Shown: positions 1,839-23,875 of the stretch, one piece after another | Layout: each line of letters begins with the position of its first letter | How positions within the stretch are numbered: position 1 is the stretch's first letter | Source: Lacrimispora saccharolytica | GTDB lineage: Bacteria; Bacillota; Clostridia; Lachnospirales; Lachnospiraceae | Direction: 5' to 3' | DNA length: 64,000 nt | Assembly: GCA_016899975.1 (NCBI GenBank) | Contig: JACJJN010000010.1 | Coordinates: 1 to 64,000 of the forward strand | Made by a program: the position numbers and the translations under genes | Notes under the pieces: model-generated | What the model saw: only the letters and a program-made list of their open reading frames with translations | Databases searched by the model: none | Told to the model about the DNA's origin: nothing

Positions 1839-1853
1839 CGTTTCCTCCTTCCT

Positions 1854-1901
1854 GACGCACTTGCTGCGTCATCATGGTAGATTTGGAAGTTTACTTCCAA
1901 A
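1854..1901 (-). repeat. Twin-hairpin intergenic element, copy A
   Basis: Two consecutive stem-loops in the gap between the acyl carrier and ligase genes: GACGCA-CTTGC-TGCGTC (1854-1870) and TTTGGAAG-TTTA-CTTCCAAA (1882-1901), separated by 11 nt. The same architecture recurs at 4580-4627 in the same operon with a compensatory change in the second stem, so the structure rather than the sequence appears to be kept. It ends about 15 nt upstream of the ligase start codon. It is not followed by a T-run, so it is not a standard terminator. It may tune mRNA stability or stoichiometry. Confidence 0.7.
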
Positions 1902-1917
1902 CTTCTGCCCTCCCGCA

Positions 1918-2145
1918 TCAATCCTTCAGGGTTTCCAGATAATCCACGGCCTCCTGTACGGTCCGGATGTCTGCAGCCGCTGTCTCATCGATCTCCACAT
2001 CAAAGGTATCCTCGATCTCACCGAGCATGCTCATAAAATCGAAGGAAGTAAATCCCAGATCCTCCATAAATCTGGATTCGGGCTGTACCTGCTCCGGCTC
2101 CACTTCCACATAATTACAGATAATCTCTACCAGTTTTTCAAACAT
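1918..2145 (-). CDS. Stand-alone acyl/peptidyl carrier protein
   Basis: A 75-residue acidic four-helix carrier. The phosphopantetheine site is in LGFTSFDFM, with Ser34 the predicted attachment residue; housekeeping AcpP has DSLD here, so the TSF context marks a dedicated carrier rather than the fatty-acid synthase ACP. The start follows TTGGAGGATAGATAG. It sits between the condensation-like gene (57 nt upstream) and the AMP ligase, which suggests the ligase loads it and the condensation-like enzyme uses the thioester. It needs a phosphopantetheinyl transferase encoded elsewhere. D-alanyl carrier (DltC-like) is an alternative, but no DltB/DltD partners are present. Confidence 0.9.
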   Translation of the reverse strand: MFEKLVEIICNYVEVEPEQVQPESRFMEDLGFTSFDFMSMLGEIEDTFDVEIDETAAADIRTVQEAVDYLETLKD

Positions 2146-2201
2146 CTATCTATCCTCCAAAATTCTGTTCCGTTGCCTTTTTCAAAAAGACATTCCTGTC
2201 C

Positions 2202-3605
2202 TTATACCAATTTGATGATATCTCCGATCGGCAGATCCGGATTTTCCGCGCCCTTGAACATAATCCGGCACAGATAATAGTACAGAAACTCCAGATCTTC
2301 CCTGGAAACGGCATGCACCTGATGCTCAAAGTTGAAATCCAGGCCGTTGTCCTCCGGACGATGCATAACGGTCAGGTACATCGCCTGTGTGGTCGCTCCG
2401 TTGGGATACCATTTGGTTTTATAGCGGATTCCTCCCAGCTTATCCAGTCCCTTTTCCTGCAGCGTCATCGGCTGATAAGTCAATGACATGGGCTCATAGG
2501 TCAACCCCGGCTCATGAGGATAAACCTTCGCTCTGTGTGCGAAGTATTCCACCGGATCATAGTTGGCATGGCGGAACATTTCATTTTGTTTGTCCCGAAT
2601 CTCATAAATACCTTCCAGAAAAGTCTTATCTTCTGATATGATCGTCCGGAACGGGAAGGAATGGATCCTCGTGCCTCCGGATTTTTTCTCCTTCAGGGTT
2701 GCGCGGCGGGCGATCGCTGTATGGATGCTCACATCGTCGTGTCCGTTCATCTTCTGGAAAAAGGTACGAAGCCCCATCAGCAAAAGGCATACCAGGGACA
2801 CATGATACTTTTCACAGAAATCCATCAGTCTCCTGGTGGGTTCCGCCTCAAGATGGAAAATATCCAGTTCCGAATCCACAGAATCTGAAGTATTGTACGC
2901 CGCCCTCAGTTCCGGATCCTTAAATTTCTTTCTCGCCGCTTCCAGCTGTCCGGTTCCGCGGATTCCGTTATAGATCGGCTCTGATTCCTCGATCAGCTTT
3001 TCAAAAAATTCCCGGTCACGCTGCTGTGCCCGGCTTCCCGCCTCATAGGCAAGATCTTTCTGAAGCTGTTCGATATAAGAGCTCATATTCTTTGGATACG
3101 GAACGTTTTCATACTTAGCATTACAGTACAGCTCGATGATGTCTTTCAGGAAACAGATCAGCGACTGGGCATCCAGGATCAGGTGGCTCGCCAACAGATA
3201 AAGACCGTTGAAACCGTCCGGCATTTGAATCATCACGACCCGGTTCATAGGAGAATCCTCCAGTTTAAACGGAACCGCCGTCCATTTCCTCATCGTTTTC
3301 TCTGCCTCTTCCATGGACATCCCGGAGAAATCCACAAATTCGATCTCCCGCTCTTCTTTGTCAACCACATACTGATAACAATTTCCTTCTTTATCCTTGG
3401 CAAACCGCACACGCATCGCCTCGCAGCGCTCGTATGCTTTATAAATAGACTGTCTCAAAAGCTCCCAGTCGATTTCCACCTCAATAGTAAGACTTGTCCC
3501 AATATTCAAAACTTCTTTTTTCGGACAAAAATTCTGGTAAAAAAAATGAAATTTCTGCGCGGCAGTCAGCGGATATACCGGATATCCTTTTCTCTTCCTC
3601 ATCAT
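2202..3605 (-). CDS. Condensation-domain-like acyltransferase
   Basis: A 467-residue protein resembling the chloramphenicol-acetyltransferase-like fold of NRPS condensation domains, alcohol acyltransferases and PapA-type enzymes. The active-site motif HHxxxDG appears as SHLILDAQS (140-148): the catalytic second His (H141) and structural Asp (D145) are kept, but the first His is Ser and the Gly is Ala. The family joins a carrier- or CoA-bound acyl group to an amine or hydroxyl. The start (ATG at 3605, or the next ATG at 3602) overlaps the upstream hydrolase stop in an ATGA, so the two are translationally coupled. The downstream carrier gene makes an acyl-carrier substrate likely. The acceptor is unknown. 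Confidence 0.75.
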   Translation of the reverse strand: MMRKRKGYPVYPLTAAQKFHFFYQNFCPKKEVLNIGTSLTIEVEIDWELLRQSIYKAYERCEAMRVRFAKDKEGNCYQYVVDKEEREIEFVDFSGMSMEEAEKTMRKWTAVPFKLEDSPMNRVVMIQMPDGFNGLYLLASHLILDAQSLICFLKDIIELYCNAKYENVPYPKNMSSYIEQLQKDLAYEAGSRAQQRDREFFEKLIEESEPIYNGIRGTGQLEAARKKFKDPELRAAYNTSDSVDSELDIFHLEAEPTRRLMDFCEKYHVSLVCLLLMGLRTFFQKMNGHDDVSIHTAIARRATLKEKKSGGTRIHSFPFRTIISEDKTFLEGIYEIRDKQNEMFRHANYDPVEYFAHRAKVYPHEPGLTYEPMSLTYQPMTLQEKGLDKLGGIRYKTKWYPNGATTQAMYLTVMHRPEDNGLDFNFEHQVHAVSREDLEFLYYYLCRIMFKGAENPDLPIGDIIKLV

Positions 3606-4564
3606 TTTAGAATTCCCCCTGTGAATGTATCCAAAGCCTTTTCATAGGCTGCCCTGTTTTTGTAATAGCTTTCTGCATGACCGGCTCCCTGCACGATCAG
3701 CTTTGTCTTTGGCCCTGCGTAATTCTGATAGATTTCCTCACACATCCGGCACGGAACAAACGTGTCCGCGCTTCCGTGGATCAGCAGCGCAGGAATCACA
3801 GCCTTGCGCACCTCCCGCGCGGCGTTGCATTCGTCCAGCCCGTAACCGGCTCTCTTTCTGTTTACCCGGTCAGCAATCTGGATCATCGGAAATGCCGGCA
3901 AATGGTACATCGTATGAAGTACATGGGTAAACACCTCTTTCGGCGAGGTGAAGGCACAGTCGGAAACGACTCCTTTTACCTGAACCGGAAGATCCAGCCC
4001 TGCGGTCATAAGAACCGTTGCGCCTCCCATGGAGGTTCCGTGGAGAAGAATCTCCATATCCCTCTGCTGTCCCTGTGGTGCCTGATCCAGCATCCAATGG
4101 ATCCACCGGACTGCATCCAGCCGGTCTTTGCATCCGAACCCGATATACTCTCCTTCACTCTGCCCATGGGCGCGTTCATCCACCAGAAGCATCCGGTATC
4201 CATGTTTCAGATAGTAGTCGGACAGTCCAATGTAATCGCTCATGCCATCGCTGGTATAACCGTGAAAACAAATCACTGCCCGTGTGCCTTTTTCTCCTTC
4301 AAAGTACGTGCCGTGAAGCTTCAGTCCGTCCCCTGACGTGATCCACACATCCCGGTGCGGCTGTTCCATCATCCACTTCTTTCGTTCTTCCATCAGCGGG
4401 AAATACTGTGCCCAGTCGGTTCCCGACATTTTTATCGTGCGCTCCCGTTTCGCTCTGCTGCGCTTCATCGTTCGCCGGTAGAAATACGCGGAGCCTGCCA
4501 GCTCCGCCGCCGTACAGATTCCCAAAACCGCAGCAGCTCCCTTGATCATTGCTTTCCTCTTCAT
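3602..4564 (-). CDS. Membrane-anchored alpha/beta hydrolase
   Basis: A 320-residue serine hydrolase. It starts with a basic end and a hydrophobic segment (about residues 7-29) that should act as an uncleaved anchor, leaving the enzyme outside or at the membrane. It has an HGYTS oxyanion turn (101-105), a nucleophile elbow HGTSMGG with Ser178, acid Asp267 in SADTFVP, and His296 in GAGHAES. This resembles BAAT/DLH-type hydrolases. In this operon it could release or trim a carrier-bound acyl product, or cleave an ester substrate; that is inference. Its stop overlaps the next gene by 4 nt. A twin-hairpin element lies just upstream of its start. Confidence 0.8.
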   Translation of the reverse strand: MKRKAMIKGAAAVLGICTAAELAGSAYFYRRTMKRSRAKRERTIKMSGTDWAQYFPLMEERKKWMMEQPHRDVWITSGDGLKLHGTYFEGEKGTRAVICFHGYTSDGMSDYIGLSDYYLKHGYRMLLVDERAHGQSEGEYIGFGCKDRLDAVRWIHWMLDQAPQGQQRDMEILLHGTSMGGATVLMTAGLDLPVQVKGVVSDCAFTSPKEVFTHVLHTMYHLPAFPMIQIADRVNRKRAGYGLDECNAAREVRKAVIPALLIHGSADTFVPCRMCEEIYQNYAGPKTKLIVQGAGHAESYYKNRAAYEKALDTFTGGILK

Positions 4565-4579
4565 TTTTTCCTCTTTCCT

Positions 4580-4627
4580 GACGCACTCGCTGCGTCATTA
4601 AGGGAGATTTGAAAGTTTACTTTCAAA
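4580..4627 (-). repeat. Twin-hairpin intergenic element, copy B
   Basis: GACGCA-CTCGC-TGCGTC (4580-4596) plus TTTGAAAG-TTTA-CTTTCAAA (4608-4627), the same layout as copy A at 1854-1901. Relative to copy A the second stem carries an A-T for a G-C pair on both arms, and the first loop has one substitution. The SCP2 stop codon (4625-4623) lies inside the second stem, so ribosome passage would affect folding. It lies about 15 nt upstream of the hydrolase start. Confidence 0.7.
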
Positions 4628-4955
4628 CTTTCTTACTTTCAATCAGAGTTTTCAGTTTCAGCGCCTTGTCAATGTTACCTTCCACTTTCAGCTGTCCCAG
4701 CGTCACCGCAAGAATCGGATCTTTCTTTCCTTCCGCGATCTTAAACAGCGTTTCCGCCGAACAGGTAAAGACTGCGTCTTTGTCATAATATTCATAAGGC
4801 TCCACATTCAGGCATCCGTCTTTTACTTCCACATAAAAGATACCTTCTGCCTCCCCTGTCACATTGAACTGGTAAGCAAGATGCTCCGTCACATCGCTCA
4901 CATCCGCTCCCATAAACATTCCCTTTACTTTCGAAAACATCTCCGCGTACGTCAT
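4623..4955 (-). CDS. SCP2 sterol-transfer-like domain protein
   Basis: A 110-residue single-domain protein of the SCP2/sterol carrier fold. The C-terminal half (GKKDPILAVTLGQLKVEG) carries the typical pattern of a lysine-rich turn, hydrophobic strand and helix with K-x-x-L. SCP2 proteins bind lipids or acyl-CoAs in a hydrophobic tunnel. It is the first gene of the leftward operon and starts after AAAGGAGGAAAT. As a soluble lipid binder it could present the acyl substrate or product of the ligase/carrier system; this is inferred from position. No catalytic residues are expected. Confidence 0.82.
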   Translation of the reverse strand: MTYAEMFSKVKGMFMGADVSDVTEHLAYQFNVTGEAEGIFYVEVKDGCLNVEPYEYYDKDAVFTCSAETLFKIAEGKKDPILAVTLGQLKVEGNIDKALKLKTLIESKKV

Positions 4956-4970
4956 ATTTCCTCCTTTTTC

Positions 4971-4988
4971 GACTGATGGTCAACTGTT
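4971..4988. promoter_or_regulatory. TetR-type operator-like repeat, site 1
   Basis: GACTGATGGTCAACTGTT, a near copy of site 2 at 5014-5031, starting 43 bp (about four helical turns) away. The core GACt-GAT-GGTC is an almost perfect inverted repeat typical of TetR-family operators. It falls between the leftward transcription start and the SCP2 ribosome site. Confidence 0.6.
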
Positions 4989-5000
4989 TCTTCTGTTAAA

Positions 5001-5025
5001 TTATCATTTTTCCGACCGTTGGTCA
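5001..5025 (-). promoter_or_regulatory. Leftward promoter overlapping operator site 2
   Basis: On the minus strand TTGACC (5025-5020) is followed by GATAAT at a 15-bp spacing, or by TAATTT at 17 bp. The -35 hexamer is part of the GACC-GTT-GGTC repeat, so regulator binding would block polymerase. The spacing is not ideal, so the exact -10 is uncertain. Confidence 0.5.
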
Positions 5026-5031
5026 ATAGTT
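5014..5031. promoter_or_regulatory. TetR-type operator-like repeat, site 2
   Basis: GACCGTTGGTCAATAGTT contains the perfect inverted repeat GACC-GTT-GGTC. It matches site 1 at 4971-4988 in 13 of 18 positions. The adjacent divergent TetR gene is the obvious candidate to bind both sites. Confidence 0.6.
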
Positions 5032-5174: not shown

Positions 5175-5786
5175 ATGGCAAGACAGGACAAATATGAAAA
5201 AATCCTTGATGCCCTCCAGACACTTCTGGAGGACCGCAACCTTCAGACGATCTCCGTCAGCGAGATCGCACAGACGGCAGGGATCGGGAAGGGAAGCATC
5301 TATTATTATTTTCCATCCAAGGAAGCCATCCTTGAGACGCTCATTGAACGAAACTACGAAAAGCCCCTGGAAACCGCAAAGCAGCTTGCCGGGCAGCCGG
5401 ACATTTCTCCGTTTACCCGTATGGCAATGATTTTTCAGGCATGCCGGAATTCTTCCTCCGAATTTCTGAAATCGGAAAGCAATTCCATCGCAGGGGCTCA
5501 GGAAAAATCCTTCCTTCACCAAAAATACGTCTCACATATGATCGCCGAGATGAAACCGGTGCTCGCAGAGATCATCCGTCAGGGAATCCAGCAGGGAGAA
5601 ATCCACTTTGACCGCCCGGAAGCACTGGCGGAGATCGTGCTGATCGTCCTGACCGTAAAGCTGGACAATACACTTGTCCCCTCTTCCCACGAGGAGATCC
5701 GCGACACCATCGCCGGACTGGTGACCCTCCTGGAAAAAGGCACAGAAAATCCGGCAGGCTCCCTGAATTTCCTGATGACTATCTGA
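5175..5786 (+). CDS. TetR family transcriptional regulator
   Basis: A 203-residue protein with an N-terminal helix-turn-helix (about residues 7-50), including the signature IGKGSIYYYFPSKEAIL. It is followed by an all-helical ligand and dimer domain. The start has AGAAAGGAAAT upstream. It is transcribed away from the SCP2/ligase operon, and two GACC-NNN-GGTC-like repeats sit in the shared 219-bp gap. Family precedent makes it a repressor released by a small hydrophobic ligand, plausibly a fatty acid, acyl-CoA or the operon product. The 3' end of the coding region doubles as the left arm of its terminator. Confidence 0.9.
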   Translation: MARQDKYEKILDALQTLLEDRNLQTISVSEIAQTAGIGKGSIYYYFPSKEAILETLIERNYEKPLETAKQLAGQPDISPFTRMAMIFQACRNSSSEFLKSESNSIAGAQEKSFLHQKYVSHMIAEMKPVLAEIIRQGIQQGEIHFDRPEALAEIVLIVLTVKLDNTLVPSSHEEIRDTIAGLVTLLEKGTENPAGSLNFLMTI

Positions 5787-5845: not shown

Positions 5846-5899
5846 CGCGGGCAACGAGCCAAGCGGACATGCTCGCATGTCCATTTGGCGACTGCCGCG
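5846..5899. repeat. Long GC-rich hairpin between tetR and the beta-galactosidase
   Basis: Nested arms: an outer CGCGGGCA/TGCCGCG pair, a middle GCCAA/TTTGGC pair and an inner GGACATG-CTCG-CATGTCC (apex near 5872-5875). It is not followed by a T-run itself, and a separate terminator stem begins 4 nt later. It looks like a mobile or structural intergenic element rather than part of either gene. Confidence 0.55.
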
Positions 5900-5902
5900 A
5901 GG

Positions 5903-5938
5903 GTCAAAAACCCCGTAGCTTGCTGCGGGGTTTTTGAC
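5903..5938. terminator. Bidirectional intrinsic terminator
   Basis: Perfect 13-bp arms GTCAAAAACCCCG (5903-5915) and CGGGGTTTTTGAC (5926-5938) around a 10-nt loop. The A- and T-rich outer ends let it work on both strands. It abuts the beta-galactosidase stop codon and backs up the TetR terminator. Confidence 0.88.
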
Positions 5939-7947
5939 TATTTCTCTATTTCCACCACTGCCACATCATACGGCTTCATGATGCGTCCGCTTTCCAGCTT
6001 CTCGCCGGTGAGCAGATCGACGCTTCCCGCAAACAGTTCCGGCAGTGCAAGATCCTCTCCCTGGAAATTCATAATAAAGTAGAATTTTGTGGTGTCATTC
6101 TCACGGACAGCGACTTCCAGATCGGTTTTTTCTCCGATCACAGGAGCCACGCCCGCTCCCTGAACCGCCTGCTCCATCACGCGATCCAGCGAAGCTTCGT
6201 CCAGATTTGCGCCTACATAGTAGACCGTACCTTTTCCATAGGAATTCTTCGTCACAACCGGCAGGCCCGCATAGAAATTGCTGGTATACTCCGCGATCAC
6301 CTCAGCGCCTTCCGTATGCATCAGATCGCACAGCAGACGGCAGGTACCGGTAGTTCCATCCTGGAAGCGGACGGTATTCTCCTGTTCCGGAGCCAGGGCG
6401 TCAATCTCTTCCACCCATACGCCAGCCATACTGCGCAGCGGTCCCGGGTATCCGCCCAGATATACGTTGTCGGACTGTCCGACGATTCCACTCATAAAGG
6501 TTGTGATCAAAGTACCTCCGGCCTTTACAAACGCTTCCAGCGCCTCTGCCACACCTTCCTTTACCATATACAGAACCGGAGCCACGATTACCTGATATTT
6601 GCTGAAATCCCCGTCCGTCGGGATCATGTCCACAGAGTAATTTTTCTTGTACAGACTGCGGTAATACTGATGGATCTGATCCACATACATCAGATCTTTG
6701 TTCGGTCCGCTGGTGTATTCCAGCGCCCAGTAGTTGTCCCAGTCAAAGATCACACCGATCCGGGAATCCGGCATGGAACCAAGGATCGTATCTCCCAGCT
6801 GCTCCAGTTCATGACCAAGCTGGGCAACCTCGCGGAAAACTCTCGTATTCTCTGTTCCCGCATGGGCGATCACTGCTCCATGGAACTTCTCACAGGCTCC
6901 CACGGAACGGCGCAGCTGGAAGAACTGGATCGTATCCGCGCCGTGCGCCATCGTCTGATAACTCTGTGCCCGCATCTGTCCCGGCTTTTTCAGAGAGTTG
7001 TACGGCTGCCAGTTCTGCTGGCTCGGCGTCTGCTCCATCAGCATGAACGGCTCGTTTTTCAGGCCGCGCATCAGGTCATGGCACATAGCGGTTCCGCTCC
7101 ACGGCGTATCGTAGCTTGGATAATTGTCCCAGGAAACGATATCCATCTCTTTGCCCCATTTGAAATAATCCAGTCCTTTATAGGTTCCCATCAGGTTGGT
7201 GGTAATCGGTGTATCCGGATCGTATTTGCGGATGATATCCCGCTCCATCTTGAAGTTCTCCAGAATGCTGTCGGAATTAAACCGGCGGTAATCGATGGAA
7301 ATTCCGGCAAACGCAGTCTTATCCTCGCCGATTCCTTCACTGAGGGCATTGGGAAGAACGATCTCGTCCCAGTCGTAGATCGTATGGCCCCAGAATTCCA
7401 GATTCCATGCCTTGTTCAGTTCTTCGATGGTGTGATATTTCTTTCTCAGCCATACGCGGAAGGCTTTCTCACAGTTTTCACAGTAGCACTCTCCGCCGTA
7501 CTCATTGTTCACATGCCAGCAGGAAACCTTGCCTGTCTTTCCATACCGTTCCGCCAGTTTTTCCACCAGGGCGGCTGCATATTTCTGGTAAACCGGGCTG
7601 TTGGGGCAGGCGTTGTGCCTCTGTCCGAATTTGTGATGCCGGCCTTCATAATCCGTACGCGCAACCACCGGATACCGTTTCACCAGCCATGCCGGAAGAG
7701 CTGCTGTGGAAGTAGCCATCACGATGTCATAATTTTCCTTCTCCAGCATCTCCACGATCTCATCCAGCTCACGGAAATCGTACTGCTCCTCAGACGGCTG
7801 GATCTTCGCCCAGGAAAATACATTGATGGTTGCACTGTTGATCCCTGCGTCACGGAACATCCGCATGTCTTCCTCCCATACCTCTCTCGGCCACTGGTTG
7901 GGATTGTAATCTCCTCCATACAGGATCCTCTTGAATGGTTTTTTCAT
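5938..7947 (-). CDS. GH42 beta-galactosidase
   Basis: A 669-residue glycoside hydrolase family 42 enzyme that hydrolyses terminal beta-galactosides in the cytoplasm. The acid/base Glu149 lies in HVNNEYGG and the nucleophile Glu305 in LMEQTPS. Cys114, Cys154, Cys156 and Cys159 form the usual zinc cluster. The start chosen is ATG 7947 (MKKPFKRILYGGDYNP), the conserved GH42 N-terminus, with GAGG upstream. The frame stays open to 8049, but that extension is basic and low-complexity and overlaps the regulatory palindrome. It is a single-gene unit divergent from an AraC regulator, so sugar-inducible control is likely. Confidence 0.93.
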   Translation of the reverse strand: MKKPFKRILYGGDYNPNQWPREVWEEDMRMFRDAGINSATINVFSWAKIQPSEEQYDFRELDEIVEMLEKENYDIVMATSTAALPAWLVKRYPVVARTDYEGRHHKFGQRHNACPNSPVYQKYAAALVEKLAERYGKTGKVSCWHVNNEYGGECYCENCEKAFRVWLRKKYHTIEELNKAWNLEFWGHTIYDWDEIVLPNALSEGIGEDKTAFAGISIDYRRFNSDSILENFKMERDIIRKYDPDTPITTNLMGTYKGLDYFKWGKEMDIVSWDNYPSYDTPWSGTAMCHDLMRGLKNEPFMLMEQTPSQQNWQPYNSLKKPGQMRAQSYQTMAHGADTIQFFQLRRSVGACEKFHGAVIAHAGTENTRVFREVAQLGHELEQLGDTILGSMPDSRIGVIFDWDNYWALEYTSGPNKDLMYVDQIHQYYRSLYKKNYSVDMIPTDGDFSKYQVIVAPVLYMVKEGVAEALEAFVKAGGTLITTFMSGIVGQSDNVYLGGYPGPLRSMAGVWVEEIDALAPEQENTVRFQDGTTGTCRLLCDLMHTEGAEVIAEYTSNFYAGLPVVTKNSYGKGTVYYVGANLDEASLDRVMEQAVQGAGVAPVIGEKTDLEVAVRENDTTKFYFIMNFQGEDLALPELFAGSVDLLTGEKLESGRIMKPYDVAVVEIEK

Positions 7948-8033: not shown

Positions 8034-8061
8034 GTGACCGTTCAGTCAACTGAACGGTTAC
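8034..8061. repeat. Dispersed GTAAC-GTTCAG palindrome, copy 1 (bga leader)
   Basis: GTGACCGTTCAG-TCAA-CTGAACGGTTAC, 12-bp arms with one mismatch. It lies about 10 bp downstream of the predicted beta-galactosidase transcription start. Related palindromes occur at 11621, 13251, 28671 and 50125. Confidence 0.7.
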
Positions 8062-8077
8062 CCTTTCTGATAATTTG

Positions 8078-23667: not shown

Positions 23668-23751
23668 GCAGGAGTGGCGGAATTGGCAGACGCGCAGGCT
23701 TCAGGTGCCTGTGGTCGCAAGATCGTGTGGGTTCAAGTCCCATCTCCTGCA
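23668..23751 (+). tRNA. tRNA-Leu (anticodon CAG), copy 1
   Basis: An 84-nt class II tRNA. The acceptor stem is GCAGGAG/CTCCTGC with discriminator A. The anticodon loop TTCAGGT sits between CAGGC and GCCTG and gives anticodon CAG at 23702-23704. A variable arm is present (TGGTCGCAAGATCGT) and the T-loop is GTTCAAGTC. The CCA end is not encoded. It decodes CUG. Confidence 0.97.
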
Positions 23752-23791: not shown

Positions 23792-23875
23792 GCAGGAGTG
23801 GCGGAATTGGCAGACGCGCAGGCTTCAGGTGCCTGTGGTCGCAAGATCGTGTGGGTTCAAGTCCCATCTCCTGCA
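23792..23875 (+). tRNA. tRNA-Leu (anticodon CAG), copy 2
   Basis: Identical in all 84 bases to copy 1, with a start-to-start period of 124 bp, so it is a recent or gene-converted tandem duplicate. It shares the upstream promoter and is followed by a T-rich run from 23877 that could end transcription. The CCA end is not encoded. Confidence 0.97.

Follow-up and report, generated by a model that had tools for sequence, protein, structure and literature searches.

Two copies of a twin-hairpin element in one operon

Why should the same pair of stem-loops stand twice in one operon, each time directly before a start codon? The question is raised by a 64,000-nt stretch of Lacrimispora saccharolytica DNA (assembly GCA_016899975.1, contig JACJJN010000010.1, positions 1 to 64,000; hereafter the window), in which two copies of such an element, A and B, precede genes of a minus-strand operon. 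In the reading that we favour, at a probability of about 0.7, the twin hairpin belongs to a short, apparently non-autonomous repeat of gut bacteria, which moves and lands 2-4 nt 5′ of start codons, always sense-oriented, and brings along its own Shine-Dalgarno sequence (SD). At the level of sequence comparison, the family, its position, the empty sites in relatives, the independent insertions, the stacking order and the conserved fold are all demonstrated, as set out below.

Each copy measures 66 nt up to the ATG that it adjoins. Copy A (1839..1904) lies between the acyl carrier protein (ACP) gene (1918-2145) and the AMP-binding ligase gene (330-1838, ATG at 1838), and copy B (4565..4630) between the SCP2-like gene (4623-4955) and the alpha/beta-hydrolase gene (3602-4564, ATG at 4564); a condensation-domain protein gene (2202-3605) completes this minus-strand set, whose names rest on Pfam matches. 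The common layout is AAGTTTGGAAGTAAACTTCCAAAT, CTACC(A/T)TGA, TGACGCAGCAAGTGCGTCA, GGAA(G/A)GAGGAAA, two bases and ATG. Hairpin 1 occupies 1882..1901 in copy A (8 bp, 4-nt loop) and 4608..4627 in copy B, hairpin 2 occupies 1853..1871 (7 bp, 5-nt loop) and 4579..4597, and the SD read from the sequence is GGAGG at 1844..1848 and AGAGG at 4570..4574, in both cases 5 nt before the ATG. The initial annotation of this DNA was right on these points: the two copies have the same hairpin spacing and the same 15 nt between the inner end of hairpin 2 and the ATG, at one pair (alignment columns 8/19) copy A has G-C where copy B has A-U, and the SCP2-like stop codon (4623-4625) falls within hairpin 1 of copy B.

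A dispersed family at the starts of unrelated genes

An exact hairpin-2 pattern (one position R) occurred 15 times in the 3.25-Mb host genome, while its reversed control did not occur. From an alignment of 28 host copies (A2; mean column identity 93%) a covariance model, R1, was built, which gave 33 matches in the host genome at E <1e-5, 28 of them scoring at least 80 bits; copy A was matched at 1836-1904 (98.9 bits) and copy B at 4562-4630 (93.7 bits), both on the minus strand. The element so defined has about 64 nt and consists of hairpin 1, a linker beginning CUACC, hairpin 2 and an SD, followed by ATG. All 28 host copies are sense-oriented and run straight into an ATG, behind which the open reading frame (ORF) has at least 68 codons in 26 cases (some reaching the end of the fetched piece), 50 codons after the second copy of L004, where its reality is doubtful, and 4 codons in L015. 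The genes that follow look unrelated (thiE, tsaE, scpB, aspartokinase, hslO, transketolase and others, named from translations, not by family search). A same-strand upstream ORF ends within 40 nt of the element at 19 of the 28 sites, a figure that misses window copy A solely because the ACP gene is short, and at seven sites the upstream frame now terminates inside the element. The element had been described as a feature of one operon, a description that has to be given up given its dispersal at the starts of unrelated genes and the empty sites in relatives.

Across seven genomes of the genus, R1 counts were very uneven: 35 in G000, 42 in G001, 68 in G002, at least 137 in G004, and none in G003, G005 and G006; no more than 150 candidates were scored in each genome, which makes the highest count a lower bound. 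A covariance-model search of relatives, proposed in the initial annotation, did return further homologues: 16 of 299 sampled family genomes matched R1 at E <=1e-5, in a survey that used a stricter filter and scored 17 candidates per genome. An exact-pattern scan of the genomes of 84,980 species gave 58 loci, among them ones in Fusicatenibacter sp. MAG.350, Candidatus Fusicatenibacter merdavium, Candidatus Blautia faecavium and faecipullorum, Candidatus Scybalocola faecipullorum, Candidatus Scatomonas merdavium, Eubacteriaceae bacterium CHKCI004 and other Eubacteriales.

The two hairpins are not equally constant. A hairpin-1 pattern matched 32 of 397 genomes, eight of which had at least five sites over both strands; since the reversed control pattern also matches some genomes once, single matches mean little. 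At ten loci, from several of the richer genomes and some others of further Lachnospiraceae, the second hairpin behind hairpin 1 is of a quite different kind, and an SD and ATG come next (L094, L105, L096, L108, L244, L248, L253, L266, L270 and L272). Because hairpin 1 recurs with varied second hairpins, it is the constant part of the family. Single hairpin-1 matches with no such structure behind them (e.g. L245, L246, L254, L259-L261, L263, L268, L269 and L271) look like chance.

Position was analysed for 155 matches across all loci, of which 13 precede another copy and 15 were filtered out, namely seven antisense palindrome matches, two interrupted or decayed copies, five changed copies in tandem arrays and L239, a full copy with an ATG behind it. 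Among the 127 kept, the ATG lies 13-14 nt past hairpin 2 in 116 and within 11-19 nt in 122; the five without ATG comprise one antisense match, one interrupted copy and three that are decayed or changed. By rough gene calls, the window has the motif AANNATG at eight called starts, in 129 coding places and in 25 non-coding places besides those starts, so that a motif this short would not by itself keep copies at starts.

Some copies depart from the usual form. Three loci of Candidatus Blautia faecavium (L196, L206 and L238) have an expanded hairpin-2 loop (CAACGTACTCCGTGAGTAAA) with about 18 extra nt and the stem kept. Copies of the G004 type (e.g. L073 and L198) end hairpin 2 with CCATGAAAGGAG, which creates an in-frame ATG 15 nt before the real start, possibly a second start codon inside the element. 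A repeat, GAGCGTGTTTGAAAATT...TGCAAGATGTGCG, was seen near or interrupting element copies at L186 (around 1560), L213 (around 6650) and L227 (Fusicatenibacter sp. MAG.350).

Empty sites and the point of insertion

The 120-nt gene starts 3′ of all 28 host copies were searched in six sister genomes, and 59 fetched stretches were compared together with four ScpB loci. By our own reading of the alignments, at least one relative is empty at 20 of the 28 places; at sites 0, 18, 22 and 26 some relatives have a start that aligns inexactly. No orthologue was found at five sites (5, 12, 14, 20 and 24), the match at site 4 was not a gene start, and at sites 13 and 15 the relatives hold remnants of the element. 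At the aminotransferase gene (site 3) the empty form GAAGGAGTGGG-AAAG-ATG corresponds to the filled form GAAGGAGTGGG[element]AG-ATG, and at scpB (site 19) GATGAGTTAGAATA-ATG corresponds to GATGAGATAG[element]TA-ATG. Further clear cases are the genes for a CBS protein (site 25), tsaE (8), a tlyA-like (16) and an hslO-like gene (17), all gene names at the compared sites being our own. As for the window, copy A is absent from the orthologous junction of G001 (site 27) and copy B from the operons of G001 and G004 (site 26). The empty G001 junction reads GAGGAGGAAGAAC before the ATG, and the GGGAGGG at 1908..1914 (minus strand), just 5′ of copy A, is probably the displaced native SD.

In these comparisons the element sits about 2 nt 5′ of the ATG and usually separates it from the native SD. 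The distance from the native SD to the element varies, whereas that from the element's own SD to the ATG is fixed; it is thus the start codon that determines where insertion takes place, to within 2-4 nt. Any target-site duplication visible at the junctions goes no further than AA (2 nt), which is hard to tell from the A-rich spacer.

Where other sisters are empty at scpB, ecfT and the aminotransferase gene, G004 has copies of its own sequence type, and by their sequence these are independent insertions. In 12 tandem arrays, from which those with a strongly decayed hairpin 2 had been filtered out, the copy closest to the consensus, taken as the youngest, adjoins the ATG in ten, lies farthest from it in one and ties in one (p 0.012). 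Repeated landing at the ATG would give such an order; simple tandem duplication would not. Remnants that have lost hairpin 1 and retain hairpin 2 and the SD were found at L026, L028 and the second copy of L018, as well as before the aspartokinase genes of G002 and G004, while the aspartokinase gene of another genus (G288) has a full copy (L104). Such remnants are consistent with hairpin 1 serving movement and with the gene coming to depend on the SD half.

The fold and its predicted effect on translation

For neither 69-nt copy did any of 200 dinucleotide shuffles come near the fold of A or B (z -4.1 and -5.2); with longer flanks, 14 and 6 of 200 shuffles fold as well. In an alignment of 107 copies (A3; 103 distinct), selected for an ATG at the usual place, 98.4% of 1,545 cells pair, and two-sided changes are seen at eight of 15 pairs; they make up 44 cells, which count sequences, not events. 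None of 500 shuffles attained any of these measures, and slid controls were 22-43% paired. The largest two-sided change is a single species-level switch from A-U to G-C (columns 37/53, 28 rows), and other pairs change too. An alternative hairpin (columns 1-6/13-18) is largely kept as well in the host copies. On the sense strand, G.U exceeds A.C in hairpin 2 (20 against 7; p 0.019, with rows that are not independent), while hairpin 1 has 11 against 9; the former leans towards folding of the sense strand and the latter is neutral. From these alignments we consider it well supported that the fold is conserved and selected, a statement that applies to the fold and not to a function. The initial annotation had inferred a selected RNA structure from the single covarying pair; as regards the fold this stands on the 107-copy covariation, but as a function it does not; the covariation could also serve mobility through a DNA hairpin.

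The initiation region has a predicted openness of 0.63 with the element and 0.56 without it, so no large effect on translation is predicted. The element's SD has a mean predicted unpaired probability of 0.41, and the linker can pair with it. Sequestration of the SD by the linker was considered and found not to be robust: many copies have an A at a paired G, and some linkers lose a pair.

A probable mobile repeat with a replacement Shine-Dalgarno sequence

How might such an element work? In the scheme that we propose, a trans-acting factor would recognise the invariant hairpin 1 and put a new copy into the purine-rich spacer between SD and ATG. The insertion would part the native SD from the ATG and substitute the element's own SD at a good spacing, so that the gene stays translatable. 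Thereafter hairpin 1 would decay and the SD half would be retained, since the gene has come to rely on it.

One would expect genes to suffer from a repeat that settles in their ribosome-binding sites, and yet dozens to more than 100 copies are present per genome, and the element brings a replacement SD. If the favoured reading is confirmed, it would mean a new targeting principle for mobile DNA and a natural, genome-wide rewriting of translation starts. It would also caution that where many genes share a conserved structured leader, this may have arrived by insertion and may not mark a regulon. A more speculative idea, which we put forward only tentatively, is that the element might belong to a class of mobile elements whose insertion site is set by translation initiation itself. 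A machine would then read the SD-start region, either as mRNA in the initiation complex or as DNA exposed behind it, and drop the hairpin element with its own SD just 5′ of the start codon. If true, insertion would be nearly harmless, copies would stack at the ATG and start regions would become a landing pad.

Several points weigh against a mobile repeat. Its movement is inferred between species and was not seen within one, and selection for position, in place of targeted insertion, could conceivably account for where copies lie. The compared junctions show no target-site duplication beyond about 2 nt. No long autonomous copy was found in the host genome with the hairpin-1 pattern, which beyond the 28-copy set turned up just one weaker copy, on contig C148. 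A mobilising enzyme was looked for among Y1/RAYT and reverse transcriptase genes, and none was found. PF01797 (Y1/RAYT) matches number one in G000, one (partial) in G002, four in G003 and one in G005, with none in G001 (a genome 75% complete), G004 and G006; these genes do not track with the element across the seven genomes, and no element-like hairpin was present at any of the seven Y1 loci. We therefore rejected a RAYT/IS200 mover. RVT_1 is absent from four element-bearing genomes (G000, G002, G131 and G245), on which ground a reverse transcriptase mover or retro-element was rejected too. Most of the genomes are draft metagenome-assembled genomes, so that the absence of a gene is weak evidence. 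Carriage by phages or plasmids was likewise set aside after searches of plasmids, phages and IMG/VR (the latter with one pattern) gave no match to the element.

Competing explanations and known systems

Riboswitch-type leaders that control translation are structured, covarying RNAs placed directly before an SD and ATG, and in this respect the element resembles them. In the best of the competing explanations, which we consider unlikely, the copies would form a cis-regulatory RNA regulon, whose hairpins bind a protein, a small RNA or a ribosome-linked factor and set the translation of many genes, and they would be kept, and perhaps spread, by selection for that control. The strong covariation immediately before the SD and start, the fixed distance to the ATG, the G.U bias of hairpin 2 and the possible pairing of linker and SD all agree with it. 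However, the downstream genes look functionally unrelated, the copies are nearly identical within a genome yet patchy among close sisters, old copies have lost hairpin 1, hairpin 2 is exchanged for another between species, and the openness of the initiation region is about equal with and without the element. Unrelated served genes and empty sister orthologues also led us to discard a riboswitch or metabolite leader as first choice. Candidate leaders for translation control appear in PMC11109978 and PMC8632094. A known RNA family was rejected, as Rfam gave no match at the element above the gathering score in the window and 15 related loci, the best permissive matches being at chance level.

Among mobile sequences, MITE-like intergenic repeats such as BOX, RUP and Correia share with our element a small size, an apparently non-autonomous nature and folding ends; they insert at various intergenic sites, ours only at start codons. 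Another candidate is a REP/REPIN-type palindrome moved by RAYT, a Y1 HUH transposase. PMC6006769 and PMC3733652 describe short dispersed multi-copy palindromes with a species-specific consensus, as here, and a tag beside one hairpin to which a GTAG in our element may correspond. According to the former, REPs carry GT[AG]G 0-2 nt from such stems; here the complementary strand reads GGTAG beside hairpin 1, like the GTAG foot of REPs, and the plus-strand GTAG stands 1 nt from the 8-bp stem with its 4-nt loop in most copies, being replaced by GCAG or GGAG in others. We nonetheless regard this origin as improbable, even more so than a regulon. REP/REPINs are extragenic in either orientation, whereas the element is strictly sense, at a fixed distance of about 2 nt before an ATG in 28 of 28 host copies, and has its own SD. 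CTACC also varies to CTGCC and CTCCC. In REP/REPIN genomes the tnpA_REP gene is flanked by the repeat, but PF01797 is absent from G001 and from the copy-richest genome, G004, reaches its highest number in the element-free G003, and is nowhere flanked by the element (0 of 7 loci). A two-hairpin derivative of the IS200/IS605 type needs a Y1 transposase with matching terminal hairpins, which does not apply here. CGTC-tagged REPs are likewise palindromic repeats without a known dedicated transposase (Di Nocera 2013, PMC3733652), but there the tag is unpaired at one end, while in our element CGTC forms part of the paired stem of hairpin 2; the main text of that paper never uses the word Firmicutes. 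We did not find such an element described in the literature, mostly open papers, where the exact hairpin-1 strings were absent; subscription papers could hold a description.

Recent duplication within the operon, which the initial annotation had named as its alternative, or chance similarity has for it the two similar copies in one operon and is refuted by the 28 copies genome-wide and by the linker ACCATGA of copy A, which recurs in distant copies (L002, L004) and differs in B, so that A is closer to those than to B and local duplication was not the origin.

Other features of the window

A second palindrome family, of the form GTAACNGTTCAGCC(A/G)GCTGAAC(T/G)GTTAC, is intergenic; its window copy at 8036-8066 reads accgttcagtcaactgaacggt, and others occur in several intergenic flanks of G001 and G004 (e.g. 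L074, L151, L157 and L174). Divergent from the operon is a TetR-type gene (5175-5786), and the gap between them (4966-5030) contains two similar half-sites, CGACTGATGGTCAA and CGACCGTTGGTCAA, which by sequence look like TetR operators. Between the TetR gene and a convergent gene, a strong hairpin, TCAAAAACCCCGTAGC...GCGGGGTTTTTGA, at 5896-5940 is probably a two-way terminator. Two tRNA genes (23668-23751 and 23792-23875), with equal scores and 40 nt between them, are perhaps a recent duplicate.

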